The notes under the pieces were generated by a model. The model did no database searches, was not told the DNA's origin, and was given only the letters and a program-made list of their open reading frames with translations. From the NCBI GenBank assembly GCA_016209865.1, contig JACQVL010000002.1:1-13581 (forward strand): a stretch of DNA of 13,581 nt. Direction: 5' to 3'. The position numbers and the translations under genes were made by a program. Positions 5,021 to 13,581 of this stretch are shown one piece after another; within the stretch, counting starts at the first letter, position 1; the number at the start of each line of letters is the position of its first letter. The DNA is from Candidatus Latescibacterota bacterium. GTDB lineage: Bacteria; JAAXHH01; JACQVL01.

Positions 5021-5054
5021 CAGCCGTTTCACATCGAGACGGCTGATTTTGTTT
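5021..5054 (+). terminator. Riboswitch-controlled intrinsic terminator
   Basis: CAGCCGTTTC (5021-5030) pairs with GAGACGGCTG (5036-5045) through ten base pairs, one of them a T-G wobble, around a 5-base loop. A T-rich run (ATTTTGTTT, 5046-5054) follows directly. The terminator's 5' arm is also the exact complement of GAAACGGCTG (5003-5012), the 3' side of riboswitch helix P1. With TPP bound, P1 forms and the terminator is free to fold. Without TPP, 5003-5012 pairs with 5021-5030 and transcription reads into thiO. Confidence 0.88.
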
Positions 5055-5064
5055 GGAGGCCTCC

Positions 5065-6186
5065 GTGCCGCGATCCCCGGACGTGCTCGTCATCGGTGGC
5101 GGGGTGATCGGACTGGCCATCGCGCGCCGGGTGGCGCAACGCGGCGGCCGGGTGACGGTGATCGAGCGGGGCGTGCCCGGTCATGAGGCCTCGTGGGCGG
5201 CCGCCGGGATGTTAGCGCCGCAGTGCGAGAGCGACACGATCGACCCCTTCTTCGACCTGTGCCGGGCCAGCCTGGGACTGTACCCGGCGTTTGCCCATGC
5301 CCTCCGGGACGAGGCCGGGATGGAGATCGAGTACCGCGTCGACGGCACGCTCTACCCGGCGCTGGATGACCGGGAACAGAAGACGCTGGAGCAACGCTAC
5401 CAGCGGCAGCGTGAGGCCGGCCTGCCGGTCGTGCGGTTGACGGCGAAAGAAGCCCGGACGATCGAGCCGAACCTGTCCAACCGGGTTCAGATGGCTCTGT
5501 CGTTCCCGGACGATCATCAGGTGGATAACCGGAAACTGGCGCAGGCGCTCGTCGTCGCGGCCAGACGGGCGGGGGTGGATGTTCGTGAGGGGGTCACGAT
5601 CACCCGGATTCTCACGGATGGCGACCGTGTCATCGGCGCGGTAACTAAGACAGAGGAGTGGCATCCGGATGTGGTCGTGAACGCCGCCGGGTGCTGGGCG
5701 AGCGTCCTGAACGGGCTGCCTCCGGGCGCCTGCCCGCCCATCCGGCCAATCCGCGGCCAGATGCTGTCCCTCGACGTGAGCGCGTCACCCCCGTTCCGTC
5801 GTGTGATCTATTCTCACCGGAGCTACCTGGTGCCGCGCGCCGACGGGCGGCTCCTCATCGGCGCGACGGTCGAGGAGGCCGGGTTCAAGAAACAGGTGAC
5901 CGTCGGGGGCATCCTGAAACTCTTCAAGGGCGCGCTCGACCTGGCCCCATCGCTCCGGGAGTATCCGGTTGAATCGACCTGGTCCGGCCTCCGGCCCGCC
6001 TCCCCGGACCGGCTGCCGGTGCTCGGCCCGGCGGCGCTCGACGGTCTCATCTTAGCCACCGGACACTACCGCAACGGGATTCTCCTCGCCCCGATCACGG
6101 GCGAGCTGATCTCAGACGTCATCACGACCGGGGACATCCCCCCCATGATGCGCCCGTTCCTGCCGGGAAGGTTTGAGAGGGTATGA
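5065..6186 (+). CDS. thiO: Glycine oxidase ThiO (FAD-dependent, thiazole synthesis)
   Basis: ThiO oxidises glycine to dehydroglycine (iminoacetate), one of the three substrates of thiazole synthase ThiG. I place the start at GTG 5065, giving 373 residues, because GGAGG at 5055-5059 lies 5 bases ahead of it. The in-frame TTG at 5053 falls inside the terminator's T-run. The N-terminal FAD-binding beta-alpha-beta fold shows GGGVIG at residues 11-16, and an acidic residue ends the second strand (VTVIERG). EASWAAAGMLAPQ is the typical ThiO/DadA-family segment after it, and WSGLRPASPDRLPVLGP followed by GHYRNGILLAP is the characteristic C-terminal FAD-contact region. It is the first gene after the TPP riboswitch and overlaps thiS by four bases (ATGA), indicating translational coupling. 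A related amine oxidase is possible in principle, but context makes ThiO nearly certain. Confidence 0.95.
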   Translation: MPRSPDVLVIGGGVIGLAIARRVAQRGGRVTVIERGVPGHEASWAAAGMLAPQCESDTIDPFFDLCRASLGLYPAFAHALRDEAGMEIEYRVDGTLYPALDDREQKTLEQRYQRQREAGLPVVRLTAKEARTIEPNLSNRVQMALSFPDDHQVDNRKLAQALVVAARRAGVDVREGVTITRILTDGDRVIGAVTKTEEWHPDVVVNAAGCWASVLNGLPPGACPPIRPIRGQMLSLDVSASPPFRRVIYSHRSYLVPRADGRLLIGATVEEAGFKKQVTVGGILKLFKGALDLAPSLREYPVESTWSGLRPASPDRLPVLGPAALDGLILATGHYRNGILLAPITGELISDVITTGDIPPMMRPFLPGRFERV

Positions 6187-6383
6187 CCGTCACCGTCAAC
6201 GGAACCGTCCATGAATTCGACCGCGCGATGAGCATGGCCGACTTGTTATGCCTTTTTGATATCAAGTCAGACGGCATCGCGGTCGCACTCAACGCGTCGG
6301 TCGTCCATCGCCAAGACCTGTCTCAGATGATGCTTCGCGACGGGGACATCGTCGAGATCATCCGCGCCGTCGCGGGCGGGTAA
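6183..6383 (+). CDS. thiS: Sulfur carrier protein ThiS
   Basis: A 66-residue ubiquitin-like protein ending in the required Gly-Gly (AVAGG). Its C-terminus is adenylylated and converted to a thiocarboxylate that donates sulfur to the thiazole ring made by ThiG. The N-terminal strand-turn-strand (TVTVNGTVHEF) and the DGDIVEIIRAVAGG end are typical. The start overlaps the thiO stop as ATGA. The activating enzyme ThiF is not in this window and must be encoded elsewhere or replaced by a MoeB-type enzyme. Confidence 0.95.
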   Translation: MTVTVNGTVHEFDRAMSMADLLCLFDIKSDGIAVALNASVVHRQDLSQMMLRDGDIVEIIRAVAGG

Positions 6384-6387
6384 ACTC

Positions 6388-6484
6388 AACGTTAGAACGT
6401 TCACACGTTTGCACGTTCACACGTTTAACCCCCGCCTTGGTTTTAACGTTTAAACGTTCTAACGTGCAAACGTGTCAACGCTCT
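6388..6484. repeat. Paired octamer arrays (AACGTTNN x5, 17-base spacer, x5) between thiS and thiG
   Basis: The left array (6388-6427) has five 8-base units: AACGTTAG, AACGTTCA, CACGTTTG, CACGTTCA, CACGTTTA. The right array (6445-6484) has AACGTTTA, AACGTTCT, AACGTGCA, AACGTGTC, AACGCTCT. ACACGTTTGCACGTT (6403-6417) is a perfect 15-base inverted complement of AACGTGCAAACGTGT (6461-6475), so the transcript could form a hairpin with a 43-base loop. That 15-mer recurs at 8765-8779. The element separates thiS from thiG inside the operon. Confidence 0.85.
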
Positions 6485-6504
6485 TTAGAAAGGAGCACAC
6501 TCTT

Positions 6505-7290
6505 ATGTCCAGCACACTGAAGATCGGAGACCGGGAGTTTCATTCCCGGCTGATTTTGGGGACGGGCAAATACCCCAACTTTGACGCCATGGTACAATCG
6601 TTCGAGGCGAGCGGGACGGAGATGGTCACCGTCGCCATCCGCCGGGTGAACCTCGACGATAAGTCTGGCCAGTCGTTGCTCGATTACATCGACCGCAAGA
6701 AGTACACCCTGCTGCCCAACACCGCCGGGTGTTACACCGCCAAGGACGCGATCCTGACCTGCGAGCTGGCGCGTGAGGCGCTCGGGACGGACATCGTGAA
6801 GCTCGAAGTGATCGGGGACGAGCGCACGTTGTTCCCAGACAACGAAGCGACGATCGAAGCGGCGCGGGTCCTCATCAACAAAGGGTTCACTGTCCTCCCG
6901 TACACGATCGATGACCCGGTGGTGTGTAAGAAACTCGAGGCGATCGGGTGCGCGGCCGTCATGCCGCTTGCCGCGCCCATCGGCTCCGGGCTGGGCATCC
7001 GGAACCCGTACAACATCATGATCATCGTGGAGCATAGCCACGTCCCGGTGATCGTGGACGCCGGGGTGGGCATCGCCTCGGACGCGGCGGTGGCGATGGA
7101 GCTGGGGTGCGACGGGGTGCTGATGAACACGGGCATCGCGGGCGCGAAAGACCCGGTCAAGATGGCGGAAGCGATGCGGAAGGCGGTCGAGGCGGGGCGT
7201 CTGGCGTTCGAGGCGGGACGGATTCCGAAGAAGCTGTACGCGACGGCGTCCAGTCCGTTGACCGGGGTGATCGGGACGGCGGCGTCGTAA
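6505..7290 (+). CDS. thiG: Thiazole synthase ThiG
   Basis: ThiG condenses 1-deoxy-D-xylulose 5-phosphate, dehydroglycine from ThiO and the ThiS thiocarboxylate into the thiazole phosphate carboxylate precursor of thiamine. The 261-residue TIM-barrel protein has the expected length. [12 protein letters not shown] (12-23) is the family's N-terminal signature. Lys99 in VKLEVIGD is the expected Schiff-base lysine, and PIGSG plus [12 protein letters not shown] are the phosphate-binding loops. The ATG at 6505 has AGAAAGGAG ending 9 bases upstream; the in-frame GTG at 6472 is rejected because it lies within the octamer repeat. The gene is co-directional with thiS after a 121-base gap filled by that repeat. 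Its stop is only 9 bases from the stop of the convergent regulator gene. Confidence 0.96.
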
Positions 7291-7299
7291 CATACCCGA

Positions 7300-8679
7300 T
7301 CACGCCCCTCCGGGGCTGAGGCCCGGCTCGATGCCCAGCGCCTTCATCTTCTTGTACAGGTACGTGTACTCCAGTCCCAGCGCCCGCGCGGCGGCCTCCA
7401 CCTGCCACTGATGGGCGATCAGACGGCGCAGGATGAAGTCGCGCTCGAATTGAGACCGGGCCTCTCGCAGGGTCGCTGAGTCTCCCTGCGCGGAGCCTTG
7501 ATCCGTTGGGATTCCCCCATCCAGAATTGTCCTCACATCCTGCCCGGCGATCTCCGTCCCATCCACCAGCAGAGCGAGCTTCTGCGCCGCATGTTTGAGT
7601 TCCCGCACGTTCCCCGGCCAGTCCCGCGCCATCAACCGGTCGAGCGCCTCCGGTAGTGCTACTTTGGATGAAAAGTGATTCTCCTGGCAGAATTCCGCCA
7701 GGAAGTGCTGGATCAACTCCGGGATGTCCGACCGTCGCTCCCGGAGGGGCGGGATACGGATCGTCATCACGTTGAGCCGGTGGTACAGGTCCTCCCGGAA
7801 CCGGCCGGCCGTCATCTCCGCTTTCAGGTCCTTGTTCGTCGCCGCCAGCACCCGCACCGACACGCTCATCGGGCGATCCTGGCCTAACGGCTCGACCTCG
7901 CCAGACTCCAGCACCCGCAGAACCTTCGCCTGGGCCGCCAGGCTCATGTCCCCGACCTCATCCAGGAATAACGTCCCCCGGTCCGCCGATTGCACCTTCC
8001 CGATGCGACTGCGGACCGCGCCGGTAAACGCCCCGCGGCCGTGACCGAACAGCTCGCTCTCGATCAGCTCACCGGGGAGCGCCGCGCAGTTCACGACGAC
8101 GTACGGCCCGCCCGCGCGACCGCTGGCCGCATGGATCGCCCGCGCGATCAACTCCTTCCCTGTCCCACTTTCCCCTTGAATCAGCACTGTGACCGTCGTC
8201 CCGGCCACCTTCGCCATCAGGTCAGCGATCTGGCGCATCGAAGCGCTCCGTCCGACGATCGCCGCCTGCACCCGCAACCGGGTGACGAACTGCGAGTGCT
8301 CGTGCCGCAATCGCGCATGGTCGAGCGCGCGCCGGATCGTCAGGCCGACGTGCTCGACGTGCAGCGGTTTCTCCAAGAAATCATACGCCCCTAATTTCAT
8401 CGCCTCCACCGCCGTCTGGATCGTCCCGTACGCGGTGAACACGATAACGGGCATCGTTGTCGTGCGGTCTCCGAGCGCCCGAAGGATGGTCAGCCCGTCG
8501 AGTTGAGGCATCTTCAGGTCGAGCAGTAGCAGATCGACCCGCTCGTCCTGGAGCTTCTTGAGCGCCTCCAGTCCATCCTCGGCCTGCACGACCCGGTAGC
8601 CGTCCTCCTCGAGGACCTTCCCCAGGGTCGCCCGCGTCCGGGCGTCGTCGTCGGCGATGAGAATAGTGAGCGTTGACAC
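7300..8679 (-). CDS. NtrC-family sigma-54-activating response regulator
   Basis: A 459-residue protein of standard three-domain design. The receiver domain (1-120) has acidic residues Asp10-Asp12, phosphoacceptor Asp54 (LLLDLKMP), Thr82 and Lys104 (FLEKP). The AAA+ domain (about 140-375) has Walker A GESGTGKE (169-176), the sigma-54-contacting GAFTGA loop (216-221), Walker B GTLFLDEV (235-242) and RFREDLYHRL with the arginine-finger region. The C-terminal Fis-type helix-turn-helix spans about 410-450 (QVEAAARALGLEYTYLYKKM). Once phosphorylated, it should remodel RNA polymerase-sigma-54 at target promoters. It follows its sensor-kinase gene on the same strand. The start is GTG with no visible Shine-Dalgarno sequence, and the first four codons (MSTL) match an octamer-array sequence. 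Specific targets are unknown; the promoter at 11184 is a candidate. Confidence 0.96.
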   Translation of the reverse strand: MSTLTILIADDDARTRATLGKVLEEDGYRVVQAEDGLEALKKLQDERVDLLLLDLKMPQLDGLTILRALGDRTTTMPVIVFTAYGTIQTAVEAMKLGAYDFLEKPLHVEHVGLTIRRALDHARLRHEHSQFVTRLRVQAAIVGRSASMRQIADLMAKVAGTTVTVLIQGESGTGKELIARAIHAASGRAGGPYVVVNCAALPGELIESELFGHGRGAFTGAVRSRIGKVQSADRGTLFLDEVGDMSLAAQAKVLRVLESGEVEPLGQDRPMSVSVRVLAATNKDLKAEMTAGRFREDLYHRLNVMTIRIPPLRERRSDIPELIQHFLAEFCQENHFSSKVALPEALDRLMARDWPGNVRELKHAAQKLALLVDGTEIAGQDVRTILDGGIPTDQGSAQGDSATLREARSQFERDFILRRLIAHQWQVEAAARALGLEYTYLYKKMKALGIEPGLSPGGA

Positions 8680-8804
8680 GTTGGAACGTTAGAACGTTGG
8701 AACGTTAAAAGATGAGAACAGAGACGATGATCCACAGAGTCATCGCTCTTCGAATGTAGATTTGAACGTGCAAACGTGTTAACGTTCGAACGTTCAAACG
8801 TTCA
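8669..8804. repeat. Paired octamer arrays (AACGTTNN x5 each) between kinase and regulator genes, overlapping both
   Basis: The left array (8669-8708) reads AGCGTTGA, CACGTTGG, AACGTTAG, AACGTTGG, AACGTTAA. The right array (8765-8804) reads AACGTGCA, AACGTGTT, AACGTTCG, AACGTTCA, AACGTTCA. A 56-base non-repetitive spacer lies between. The left array covers the regulator's GTG start (8679-8677) and next codons; the right array covers the kinase's last codons and TGA stop (8794-8796). The two genes thus have no intervening DNA beyond this element. Sequence is shared with 6461-6483. Confidence 0.85.
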
Positions 8805-10935
8805 GCGTCATCGTCACCACCGTCCCCGCGCCCTCCCGGCTGCGCAGGTCGAGCGTGCCGCCGTGCGCCTCGACGAGGTGCCGGGCGATGGGCAGGCCGA
8901 ACCCGGTGCCGGACGGCTTCGTCGTGAACGTCGGCTCGAACACCTTCGCAAGATGGGCTTCAGGAATGCCCGCGCCGGTATCCATTACCTCGATCACGAT
9001 CGTGCGAGCCACGACGCCGTTCGACTCCAGCCGCTCGCTGGATCGGGTGATGATGATGATCTGTCCGTGTTGCCCGTCCATCGCGGCGACCGCGTTCTCG
9101 ATGAGGTTCTCGAGGACCATTCCTAAGACATCTGGATCGACGTAGATCATCGGCAGGCCCTCTTCCGTCTTCAGCACGATCTCGGCCGGCAGCAAGACGG
9201 TCTGCTGGTAGAACGCGGCGCGTTCTTTGAGATAGGGGTTGACATCGAGCGGTTGCTTCTTCAGGTGGACGCAGTCCACGAAGCGCATGACCGCGTTCGC
9301 GCGCTGTCCCAGGCGTTCCATCTCATCCAGGATGACAGTGAACGATGGCGTATGCTCAGGACCGGTCTGCTGCATCAGCCGGCGGAGGGTCAGGGACATG
9401 ACGTTGAGCGGGCTTTTCAACTCATGCGCGAGCGCCTGCGCGACCGTCGCCCACGCGAGGACAAAGGGCATCCCGTCCGACTGCGGAGACGGAGACGAGC
9501 GTCGCGTGCGCCGGACGTAGAGGAGCAGCATAGCGGCAGTGATCGCCACGCCCGAGATGAAAACACCAGCGTACCGCAGGAGTGACAGATCCAGCCGGCT
9601 GAGGACGGGGGCGGGCCGGAGGTCGTAGACACTAAATACATCAGAGGGCTGCCGCACCAGGAAGGAAAATGGACTTTCTGATGGTCCCAGCTGGACAAGA
9701 TATATCTGTCTCCCCTCTTTCAACGTTGCCATCGGTCGGAAGCGATCGTCCAGCACGAGCAATCCCGCTTCCTGTACGACGCAGTAGATTTCAGGCCGGC
9801 CGTCCCGATTGAAGTCATAGACCTGTACCCCGGTCGGCTTCCCGGTGTTGTACTCCAGGACGGTCTTGAGGGATTCATCCAGCGCGGCGACCAGGCCCTG
9901 AGCGGTTCCGACGATGATCTCATCCCGGCCGTCTCGATTCAGTTCTGTCGTGAGGATAGAAAGCACTGACCACGGGCTATTCCAGCGATGGAGCATGCGT
10001 CCGGTCTTCCCATCCCAGATGCCGATCTGACCAACGTTGGGTTCAGTACGCGGTCCATCCAAGGCAGTCACAATTTCAGGAATACGATCTCCGTTCACAT
10101 CCGCCGCTGTTGCTTTCACAACTGTAGACGTCCCGCCGAGGCGCTGCTGCCAGAGAAGATGTCCTTGATTGTCGAGAACGATCAAGTAGCTGTGGAGATC
10201 ATCCGTTCCGTTCGCATCGGCTCCGTTCCCTGGAGTCACGGTTCCGATCAGAATCTCATCACGCTGGTCACCGGTCAGGTCTTGGATGGAGATGGAGTTA
10301 GGGACTGTCCCCATCGGATAGAACCACAAGACAGTTCCGGCCCGTCCGTCGAGCGCGACGATTCCGCGCGGGGTCAAATCGAATCCGGTTTTGATCTGGC
10401 CGATGAGGTCAGGCCGGCGGTCTCCGTTCACGTCCGTTGTTCCAATGATCATGATTCTCGAATCGAGCGTCCCGTCTCTATTGGTATCCTTGAGCTGGAC
10501 GATATCTGCAGTCCAGCGCGGGAGCGGTTGGGGGCGCTCCAGGACTGCCTGGTCATAGACCTTCAGTAGGAGATGATCTCCTTCAATGAGACCGATACAG
10601 ATTTCATCACGATGATCGCCGTCCAGGTCGACATTCCCGGAGAAGTCAAACGGCATTGGAAGGTTCAGTTGCCATCGGACCCGAGTGCCAGAGGGGAGGA
10701 TAACATGGAGCATCAGGGCGTACGGCCCTGCGGGAACTTTGCCATAGGACGACAGTTCCATCTGTCCGTCCTGATCGATATCTAAGACCCCGTGAAAGTT
10801 ACTTTCCGTGAACGTAAACCGCTGGCGGAAGATGTAGGGGAGCGAGGCGGGCGAATCAGACGAAGCGGGCGCACAGGCGACGCATGTGAGGGCGAGCAGG
10901 CTGCTCGTGAGCACGACAAGACGGAGCGGCGTCAT
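8794..10935 (-). CDS. Sensor histidine kinase with extracytoplasmic FG-GAP/VCBS beta-propeller
   Basis: A 713-residue protein. Residues 4-21 are a hydrophobic export signal or anchor; Cys18 and Cys21 are near lipobox context but neither fits the consensus well. Residues 40-430 carry eight Asp-rich calcium-loop motifs: DIDQDGQME (52-60), DLDGDHRDE (103-111), DTNRDGTLD (150-158), DVNGDRRPD (168-176), DLTGDQRDE (219-227), DVNGDRIPE (279-287), ELNRDGRDE (331-339), DFNRDGRPE (374-382). Most are 43-60 residues apart, as in an integrin-like propeller of about seven blades. A transmembrane helix spans about 452-474. The cytoplasmic kinase follows almost at once, without HAMP or PAS: phosphoacceptor His504 in AHELKSPL, N-box Asn614, DTGAGIP (652-658) and GTGFGL (676-681). 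It should phosphorylate the regulator encoded 114 bases downstream. The ligand is unknown. The ribosome binding site is weak. Confidence 0.94.
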   Translation of the reverse strand: MTPLRLVVLTSSLLALTCVACAPASSDSPASLPYIFRQRFTFTESNFHGVLDIDQDGQMELSSYGKVPAGPYALMLHVILPSGTRVRWQLNLPMPFDFSGNVDLDGDHRDEICIGLIEGDHLLLKVYDQAVLERPQPLPRWTADIVQLKDTNRDGTLDSRIMIIGTTDVNGDRRPDLIGQIKTGFDLTPRGIVALDGRAGTVLWFYPMGTVPNSISIQDLTGDQRDEILIGTVTPGNGADANGTDDLHSYLIVLDNQGHLLWQQRLGGTSTVVKATAADVNGDRIPEIVTALDGPRTEPNVGQIGIWDGKTGRMLHRWNSPWSVLSILTTELNRDGRDEIIVGTAQGLVAALDESLKTVLEYNTGKPTGVQVYDFNRDGRPEIYCVVQEAGLLVLDDRFRPMATLKEGRQIYLVQLGPSESPFSFLVRQPSDVFSVYDLRPAPVLSRLDLSLLRYAGVFISGVAITAAMLLLYVRRTRRSSPSPQSDGMPFVLAWATVAQALAHELKSPLNVMSLTLRRLMQQTGPEHTPSFTVILDEMERLGQRANAVMRFVDCVHLKKQPLDVNPYLKERAAFYQQTVLLPAEIVLKTEEGLPMIYVDPDVLGMVLENLIENAVAAMDGQHGQIIIITRSSERLESNGVVARTIVIEVMDTGAGIPEAHLAKVFEPTFTTKPSGTGFGLPIARHLVEAHGGTLDLRSREGAGTVVTMTLNV

Positions 10936-11183
10936 GGGCTTCTCACGGTTGAGGAGGCGCGAACACCAGAGACATGACGATGTACGAAAGAGAAGTATCG
11001 AACGCAGTAAAGTAGAGAGTGTTCATTGCATGAAATGATAAATCAATATACGCCGATTGGCACAAAACGACAAGAGGGTTCTCAAGAGAGGCTGGAAGGG
11101 AACACCGGGGCATGATGAGCAACATCTTGAGGGGCAAGCTCTTTCGAGAAGGCCGATTGGAGTGTCGAAACCAGGCTGACGAC

Positions 11184-11199
11184 TGGCATGGTGTTTGCA
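11184..11199 (+). promoter_or_regulatory. Candidate sigma-54 (-24/-12) promoter for the NHL/PKD protein gene
   Basis: TGGCATGGTGTTTGCA matches the sigma-54 consensus TGGCACRNNNNTTGCW at every specified base except the sixth (T for C). The GG (11185-11186) and GC (11197-11198) pairs are separated by the required ten bases. Transcription would start near 11210, about 165 bases before the ATG at 11375. The adjacent gene pair encodes a sigma-54 activator, which makes the match more credible. Confidence 0.55.
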
Positions 11200-11260
11200 A
11201 TCAAGTCTCAAGGGTAAATCATTCATCACGCGAACTCTCCATGTCATCCTTACTGCCGCT

Positions 11261-11332
11261 GTCATTCCCGCGCAAGCGGGAATCCATCACTTTTCTGCGA
11301 TGCTGATTGGATTTCTGCGTTCACGGGAATGA
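11261..11332. repeat. Imperfect long palindrome of the ATTCCC-N8-GGGAAT type
   Basis: ATTCCCGCGCAAGCGGGAAT (11264-11283) fits the pattern ATTCCC-N8-GGGAAT, the form of the Neisseria dRS3 repeat and of similar intergenic repeats in other bacteria. Flanking GTC and CCA extend it to 11261-11286. A degenerate inverted copy begins TGGATTTCTGCG and ends CACGGGAATGA (11308-11332), making a palindrome of about 70 bases. It lies between the candidate sigma-54 start and the NHL gene, so it would be in that gene's mRNA leader. A decayed half-copy is at 4844-4868. Confidence 0.65.
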
Positions 11333-11374
11333 TATCATGCAGAACGTGAGTTTTTCAACCAAAGGGGGGTACTT

Positions 11375-13581
11375 ATGAAACGGCAAAGAATGTCTGTGTT
11401 GCTGTTCATTATGACAATCGGACTCATTGTGACGATGGAGACCGTATCGGCTCAGGTGCCAGGTACCATTATGACGGTTGCCGGAGATGGGTTTGTTTTC
11501 ATCGATTCTAACGGTGATATCAATGGTCGTTTCGCGGGTGATTGGGGCCCAGCCACTCTGGCCAGCACGAATAGAGCCCATAAGATTGCTCTGGATGGAG
11601 CTGGAAATCTCTATATCGCGGATTCCGGTAACAACCGCGTTCGGCGGGTCGATGCGATTACCAAAATTATCACGACGGTGGCCGGTAATGGAACCGCGGG
11701 CTTCTCCGGGGACGGCGGCCCGGCAACCCTGGCCAGCTTGAATAACCCTGATGATGTGTTTGTCGATGGAGCCGGCAACCTGTATATCGCGGATGAAAAG
11801 AACGACTGCATCCGGAAAGTAGACTACAGTACCGATATCAGAGGGATCATTACCACGTTTGTCAGTGGTCTGAACAAACCCACAGATGTGTGGATGGATG
11901 AAGCAGGAAACTTGTACATCTCCGATCACGTCAATAATCAGATTGTAAAGCGTGATCCTGGTGGGACCGTCACCGTAATCATTGGTGGTCTGAACCGTCC
12001 ACGTGGTATTGTGGTGGATGGTTCTGGGAATCTCTACATCGCAGATCGAGACAACCATCGCGTCCTGAAGCGTAACCTCAGCACAGGGATTACCACCACT
12101 GTAGCGGGCAATGGGACTGAAGGCTTCTTCGGAGATGAAGGCCAGGCAACTCTGGCTCGCCTGGCGGGACCTGAAGATGTGACCATAGATGGTTCAGGGA
12201 ACCTCTATATCGCAGATAGGTGGAACCATCGGGTTCGGAGGGTAGACAACGGGGTCATCACGACGGTTGTTGGAAGTGGGCCTACTGGCCCCGGGAATGG
12301 TGATTTTACTGAGGATGGCATACCGGCGACTGAAGCACGCTTTAATAGCATTACCAGTGTATTTCTAGATGGAGCTGGAGAGCTTTACTTTATCGATTAC
12401 TATAACCAGCTCACCCGGAAGGTGATTGCTACCCCGATCAACCAGCAGCCGGTAGCCAATGCGGGAGGGCCGTACAACGTGGATGAAGGCGGTTCGGTGA
12501 GCGTTACCGCGAGTGGGAGTGATCCGGATGCCGGAGATGTCCTGACCTTCGCCTGGGACCTGGATAACAACGGTTCCTTCGAGACCCCCGGCCAGAGCGT
12601 AACGTTTTCGGCTGTTGGACTGGATGGCCCCAGCCCCCACCCCATCGCAGTCAAGGCCACCGACAGCGGGGGACTGTTCGCCACGGCTCAGGCCACCGTC
12701 AATGTTCTGAACGTCGCACCCACGGTGGGCACGATCACCGCTCCGATCGACCCCATCAGCGTGAATACGCCTATCACCGCCAGCGCCCCCTTCGCCGACC
12801 CCGGCACGCCGGATACCCACACGGCCGAATGGAGCTGGGGCGACGGCACAACCTCAGCAGGCACGGTCACGGAAACCAATGGGTCAGGCTCGGTGAGTGG
12901 GGACCACACCTATACGACGGCGGGCGTCTATACCGTCACGCTGACGGTCACCGACGATGACGGCGGGGCCGGTCAGGCCGTGTTCCAGTTTGTCGTGATC
13001 TACGACCCGAGTGCCGGCTTTGTGACCGGCGGCGGCTGGTTCACCTCCCCGCCCGGCGCCTACACGGCCAACCCCACCCTCACGGGCAAAGCCACCGTCG
13101 GGTTCGTGTCCAAATACTTGCCCGGCGCCACGACCCCTTCCGGCAATACCCAGTTTCAGTTCAAGGCGGGGGACCTGACCTTCAAGAGCACCAGCTACGA
13201 GTGGCTGGTGGTGGCAGGCGCGCAGGCCAAGTACAAAGGCACGGGCACGATCAACGGCAGTGGGAGTTATACCTTCCAGGTGAGTGCGACGGATGGGCAG
13301 GTGTCTGGTGGAGGCGGTGTGGATAAGTTCCGAATCAAGATTCAGGGGCCGGGAGGGATGGTGTATGACAACCAGCCGGGCGCGGGAGACGATGCGGAGC
13401 CGACGACCGCGCTGGAGGGCGGGAGCATCGTGATTCACAAGAATGCGGCGGCGAAGCCGGTGGTGGCGGAGGCTCTGCCGCCGACGTTTGCACTCAGACC
13501 GAACCGGCCGAACCCGTTCAACCCAACCACCCGGATTGCCTATGAGGTGCCCCAGCGTGCCCAGATCACCCTGGCGGTGTA
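11375..13581 (+). CDS. Secreted NHL-repeat beta-propeller protein with PKD domains and T9SS-like sorting tail (3' end beyond window)
   Basis: The reading frame stays open from the ATG at 11375, preceded by GGGGGG at 11364-11369, to the window edge: 735 codons, incomplete at the 3' end. Residues 1-26 are a signal peptide (basic start, hydrophobic core, cleavage probably after VSA). Six NHL repeats follow, each with a DGxGNLYIAD-type core at 74-83, 131-140, 175-184, 215-224, 272-281 and 332-341, enough for a closed six-blade propeller. Two PKD-type domains follow at about 358-445 and 448-541 (the second has WSWGDG and HTYTTAGVYTVTLTVTD). A glycine-rich beta domain (548-688, starting FVTGGGW) follows; I have seen similar modules after PKD repeats but cannot name it confidently. 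Residues 700-735 (FALRPNRPNPFNPTTRIAY) resemble T9SS/FlgD-like C-terminal sorting domains. The propeller half is visibly less GC-rich than the C-terminal half. Probably exported to the cell surface; its ligand is unknown. Confidence 0.9.
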   Translation, partial: MKRQRMSVLLFIMTIGLIVTMETVSAQVPGTIMTVAGDGFVFIDSNGDINGRFAGDWGPATLASTNRAHKIALDGAGNLYIADSGNNRVRRVDAITKIITTVAGNGTAGFSGDGGPATLASLNNPDDVFVDGAGNLYIADEKNDCIRKVDYSTDIRGIITTFVSGLNKPTDVWMDEAGNLYISDHVNNQIVKRDPGGTVTVIIGGLNRPRGIVVDGSGNLYIADRDNHRVLKRNLSTGITTTVAGNGTEGFFGDEGQATLARLAGPEDVTIDGSGNLYIADRWNHRVRRVDNGVITTVVGSGPTGPGNGDFTEDGIPATEARFNSITSVFLDGAGELYFIDYYNQLTRKVIATPINQQPVANAGGPYNVDEGGSVSVTASGSDPDAGDVLTFAWDLDNNGSFETPGQSVTFSAVGLDGPSPHPIAVKATDSGGLFATAQATVNVLNVAPTVGTITAPIDPISVNTPITASAPFADPGTPDTHTAEWSWGDGTTSAGTVTETNGSGSVSGDHTYTTAGVYTVTLTVTDDDGGAGQAVFQFVVIYDPSAGFVTGGGWFTSPPGAYTANPTLTGKATVGFVSKYLPGATTPSGNTQFQFKAGDLTFKSTSYEWLVVAGAQAKYKGTGTINGSGSYTFQVSATDGQVSGGGGVDKFRIKIQGPGGMVYDNQPGAGDDAEPTTALEGGSIVIHKNAAAKPVVAEALPPTFALRPNRPNPFNPTTRIAYEVPQRAQITLAV

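Follow-up and report, generated by a model that had tools for sequence, protein, structure and literature searches.

The window analysed here is a stretch of 13,581 bp that constitutes the entire contig C337 of a 3.75 Mb genome assembly, 83% complete. Its right half brings together a histidine kinase with a propeller sensor, an NtrC-type regulator and a divergent gene for a predicted exported NHL propeller protein (Table 1). This arrangement raises two questions, namely whether the three genes belong to one regulatory circuit, and what the kinase would sense.

Table 1. Position of the features discussed in the text (window coordinates).
Feature	Position	Strand	Remarks
NtrC-type response regulator, 459 aa, GTG start	7300..8679	-	REC, sigma-54 AAA+ and Fis-type HTH domains; intact motifs
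Hairpin element of 8-nt ACGTT units	8666..8806	-	Fills the kinase-regulator gap
Sensor histidine kinase, 713 aa	8794..10935	-	N-terminal signal/anchor, FG-GAP propeller, one TM helix, HisKA and HATPase_c
Single transmembrane helix, aa 456-474	9514..9570	-	Hydropathy
FG-GAP propeller sensor domain, aa 25-455 (fold predicted)	9571..10863	-	About seven repeats by motif count
Sigma-54 -24/-12 promoter-like site TGGCATGGTGTTTGCA	11184..11199	+	Upstream of the NHL gene; consensus match
Secreted NHL propeller and PKD protein (export predicted)	11375..13579	+	Pfam NHL and PKD; type IX sorting tail begins (PNPFNP); cut off by the contig end

The Kinase and the Regulator

The kinase starts with a hydrophobic, signal-like N-terminus, and the FG-GAP repeats, the transmembrane helix and the HisKA and HATPase_c domains were all found within its single open reading frame. 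The Pfam matches were FG-GAP_3, FG-GAP, HisKA and HATPase_c, and on inspection of the sequence the catalytic motifs were intact. The original prediction of an FG-GAP propeller kinase devoid of HAMP and PAS was borne out on both counts, neither of these two domains being matched in the window kinase. Six strict D-x3-D-x3-[DE]-[ILF] repeats were counted in the sensor, in addition to the segments ELNRDGRDEI and DTNRDGTLD, and the number of blades would be close to seven. The single-sequence AlphaFold model of the sensor alone had a pLDDT of 39. The best NCBIfam match of the kinase was AtoS, under the curated cut-off.

The regulator matched PF00072, PF00158, PF25601 and PF02954 above cut-off, the domain set of an NtrC-type protein. 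The phospho-Asp in LLLDLKMP, the Walker A and Walker B motifs and the GAFTGA motif were all intact, in agreement with the claim that the partner of the kinase is a full NtrC-type activator. Its best NCBIfam matches were NtrC, AtoC, NtrX and ZraR, all of them under the curated cut-offs. Assignment to one of the named equivalogs NtrC, AtoC or ZraR was rejected, as the scores were below the curated cut-offs (412 versus 558.6, 406 versus 714 and 368 versus 760, respectively). Sigma-54 itself (RpoN) is encoded in the genome. A thiO-thiS-thiG operon, at 5053-7290 in the window, is convergent with the regulator gene.

A profile was built from four sensor domains (those of the window and of genomes G073, G060 and G011) and the family was surveyed with mechanically called open reading frames. 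Matches with kinase-sized frames (about 850 aa) were present in 19 of 384 sampled genomes, belonging to several phyla, and in 41 of the 82 genomes of the phylum of G060. The fusion of a propeller to a kinase, initially thought to be uncommon, thus proved not to be rare; it is the lack of PAS that sets the window kinase apart, because most of its relatives are approximately 120 aa longer and possess a PAS-like stretch. An NtrC regulator stood beside the kinase in 52 of the 62 loci with room for one. The distance matrices of kinases and regulators were correlated with r = 0.82, a value reached in none of 2000 permutations, and the family regulators formed clusters separate from those of the remaining NtrC regulators in their genomes (4 changes versus 36 in shuffles). 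The pairing of kinase and regulator is therefore a conserved one, and the window holds one member of a widespread and, it appears, hitherto undescribed family of signalling pairs. A partial literature search returned no description of FG-GAP or VCBS histidine kinases, or of sigma-54 in connection with type IX secretion.

Two or three propeller kinases in tandem were observed beside a single NtrC regulator at four loci (L117, L161, L162 and L178), which suggests that several sensors feed one output. The only relative found in the order of the window was that of G011, in which the kinase copy shows an in-frame stop and a frameshift; this copy may be decaying, or the lesions may be sequencing errors.

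Linkage to Type IX Cargo Genes

The tail of the NHL protein, visible only as PNRPNPFNPTTRIAYEVPQRAQITLAV, was recognised from its motif and is truncated at the contig end; 34 full type IX sorting tails were found elsewhere in the genome. The SprA translocon was not found in the 83%-complete assembly. It was present in three relatives of the order, in one of them weakly, and in 10 of 10 genomes sampled from two other phyla.

Tailed genes are common in the phylum of G060, with up to at least 128 per genome. For this reason an adjacency count without control was dropped, and NtrC regulators outside the family, taken from the same genomes, served as the control (57 units from 15 of the genomes that contributed family loci). 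The tail HMM was seeded from the control loci and not from the test loci to avoid bias, and detection by regular expression only gave the same result. A type IX-tailed gene was directly adjacent at 24 of 111 family flanks (22%) versus 1 of 113 control flanks (p ~2e-7). When the comparison was confined to the 15 control genomes, the counts were 10 of 32 family flanks versus 1 of 113 (p = 7e-7), all p-values given in this text being optimistic since they ignore the relatedness of the loci. Inside the family loci, genes directly adjacent to the pair were tailed more often than those at least three genes away (p = 3e-4). An adjacent tailed gene was seen in only 22 of 73 units (about 30%), a count lowered by contig ends, and the adjacency is a tendency and no rule. 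At locus L239 (2062-10327), a kinase without detectable FG-GAP matches lies beside a C25 peptidase with a type IX tail, and the regulator is preceded by a weaker sigma-54-like site. This unit, counted here as a control, is possibly a divergent member of the family.

The domains of the tailed neighbours were diverse: C10, S8 and M1 peptidases, LamG, beta-helix, Kelch, PD40, Reg_prop, cohesin/dockerin and FG-GAP/ASPIC. A Pfam scan of the tailed neighbours in 19 relatives revealed no NHL domain. The recurring partner is therefore an exported tailed protein and not an NHL propeller. A conserved kinase-regulator-NHL neighbourhood had been expected if the three genes formed one regulon. In this strict form the idea failed and was discarded, as the NHL gene is not kept beside the pair and the neighbours differ in their domains. 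In the form in which the pair regulates an adjacent type IX cargo gene, the idea was strengthened by the same-genome control.

The same diversity bears on the nature of the signal. The kinase propeller had been imagined to read the secreted propeller, by specific binding between the two. The cargo of some relatives does include propellers (PD40, Reg_prop, Kelch, FG-GAP), but so many of the adjacent exported proteins are of unrelated types (peptidases, lectins, beta-helices, cohesin/dockerin proteins), with NHL missing among them, that this recognition appears very improbable and is not favoured. More generally, the kinase could sense the exported protein whatever its domains, or its passage through the periplasm, and so give the type IX route a signal of secretion status or a feedback. 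The linkage of the family to cargo genes above the same-genome control is consistent with such sensing, and a precedent exists in Porphyromonas gingivalis, where PorA, a type IX C-terminal-domain protein, acts upstream of PorXY-SigP and influences its signalling (PMC7712824), which suggests, by analogy, that a protein with a type IX tail can feed a two-component system. However, the adjacent cargoes share only the tail, itself variable in sequence, their domains being unrelated, and a cargo gene adjoins only about 30% of the units; we consider cargo sensing rather unlikely.

Sigma-54 Sites and the Intergenic Regions

The site TGGCATGGTGTTTGCA is located 175 bp ahead of the ATG of the NHL gene, within the divergent region shared with the kinase gene. 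It showed no mismatch to the -24/-12 consensus, for 0.01 matches expected by chance in shuffles. With a slightly wider pattern, 27 sites were counted across the genome versus 9 for a reversed-pattern control, an excess of approximately 18. The site at 11184 is a convincing candidate for the sigma-54 promoter of the NHL gene. Of the divergent gene as first described, the NHL and PKD domains and the perfect promoter-like site were confirmed, the tail being the part that is motif-based and truncated. The sigma-54 sites of this genome precede varied genes, and no pattern indicating a regulon of tailed genes was seen among them. No upstream binding site for the window regulator was identified; the GCCGATTGG direct repeats ahead of the sigma-54 site were considered as such and judged to be due to chance. 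A REP-like inverted repeat with TCATTCCCGCGCAAGCGGGAATCCA was observed at 11262-11332, between the sigma-54 site and the start codon, and would be transcribed as part of the 5' leader.

In the relatives, a strong sigma-54 site was present in the 400 bp preceding the start of 18 of 55 family regulators, versus none of 57 control regulators (p = 5e-7), mostly immediately past the stop codon of the kinase. These sites point to a regulator that would use sigma-54 to activate its own gene. In the window, no such site was found in the kinase-regulator gap, and the site stands before the divergent cargo gene instead. Few adjacent cargo genes carry a strong sigma-54 site of their own, the window being the clear case.

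Possibly, the pair acts on itself or on distant genes only, the NHL gene being a bystander or its site answering to another NtrC regulator. Strong NtrC-type regulator matches number at least 12 in the genome, each of them a possible activator at 11184, and the genome has about 18 sigma-54 sites in excess of the control. With 34 tailed genes, chance adjacency would amount to a few percent, and the relatives often have their sigma-54 site before the regulator instead. Against this, tailed genes adjoin the family pairs more often than they adjoin other NtrC regulators in these genomes, and the perfect site lies in the shared divergent region. We give this explanation about one chance in four.

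The kinase-regulator gap is occupied by an element that spans from the stop codon of the kinase to the GTG of the regulator, the GTG being inside the end of the element, and no Shine-Dalgarno sequence was visible for this GTG. A second copy is intergenic, at 6386-6486. Both are inverted arrays of 8-nt ACGTT units ending in AACGTGTCAACGCTC, with fold z-scores of -2.9 (6386-6486) and -4.0 (8666-8806). In 99.6 kb drawn from other loci in the genome no such array occurred, and similar ones were found in five IMG/VR contigs.

Proposed Mechanism

We propose, as the best reading and a reasonably probable one, that the pair is a ligand-sensing two-component system that activates the sigma-54 promoter of a locally encoded type IX-exported protein. 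In this model, the FG-GAP propeller of the kinase would lie in the periplasm, held by its one transmembrane helix. The binding of a ligand would alter autophosphorylation of the kinase, which would phosphorylate the adjacent NtrC-type regulator, and the phosphorylated regulator would then activate sigma-54 RNA polymerase at nearby promoters. In the window, the site at 11184 would drive the exported NHL/PKD protein; in many relatives, the site in the gap would drive the regulator itself and possibly the genes downstream. The recurring output would be a locally encoded type IX-exported protein whose domains differ by species, and across the family the pair probably switches on adjacent genes for exported proteins. 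The signal would likely be a periplasmic small molecule, glycan or peptide, telling the cell to display the exported protein. A bolder extension, which we regard as doubtful, is that the propeller kinases of the different phyla form a signalling branch dedicated to type IX secretion, combining sensing of cargo or export status, a sigma-54 response and positive feedback on their own regulator.

Comparison with Known Systems

What is known of how type IX secretion is regulated comes mainly from PorXY in Bacteroidota. If the proposed model is true, a sigma-54 family in other phyla would offer a handle on which of the 30 to more than 128 tailed proteins are displayed. The bacteria concerned are mostly uncultured, and the question of display could be approached with one promoter and one regulator.

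PorX is not known to be an NtrC-type protein. The window pair was not identified with PorXY, as its regulator possesses the AAA+ sigma-54 and Fis domains of the NtrC type and its sensor is a propeller. The likeness is that of a two-component system tied to type IX secretion, with the cargo-like PorA upstream of the signal (PMC7712824). PorXY works via the ECF factor SigP (PMC4800418).

The NtrC/AtoC/ZraR-type sigma-54 systems, such as AtoSC and ZraSR, are alike in the architecture of the regulator and in the kinase core. The window pair differs from AtoSC and ZraSR by its FG-GAP propeller sensor, by the linkage of its family to type IX cargo genes, and by the predicted sigma-54 promoter found inside the operon of many of its relatives.

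The hybrid Reg_prop/Y_Y_Y two-component systems of Bacteroides also connect a periplasmic beta-propeller sensor to a histidine kinase and are linked to genes for surface proteins, with an AraC-type output. Compared with these hybrids, the window pair has a propeller of the FG-GAP type, a separate regulator and a predicted activation through sigma-54.
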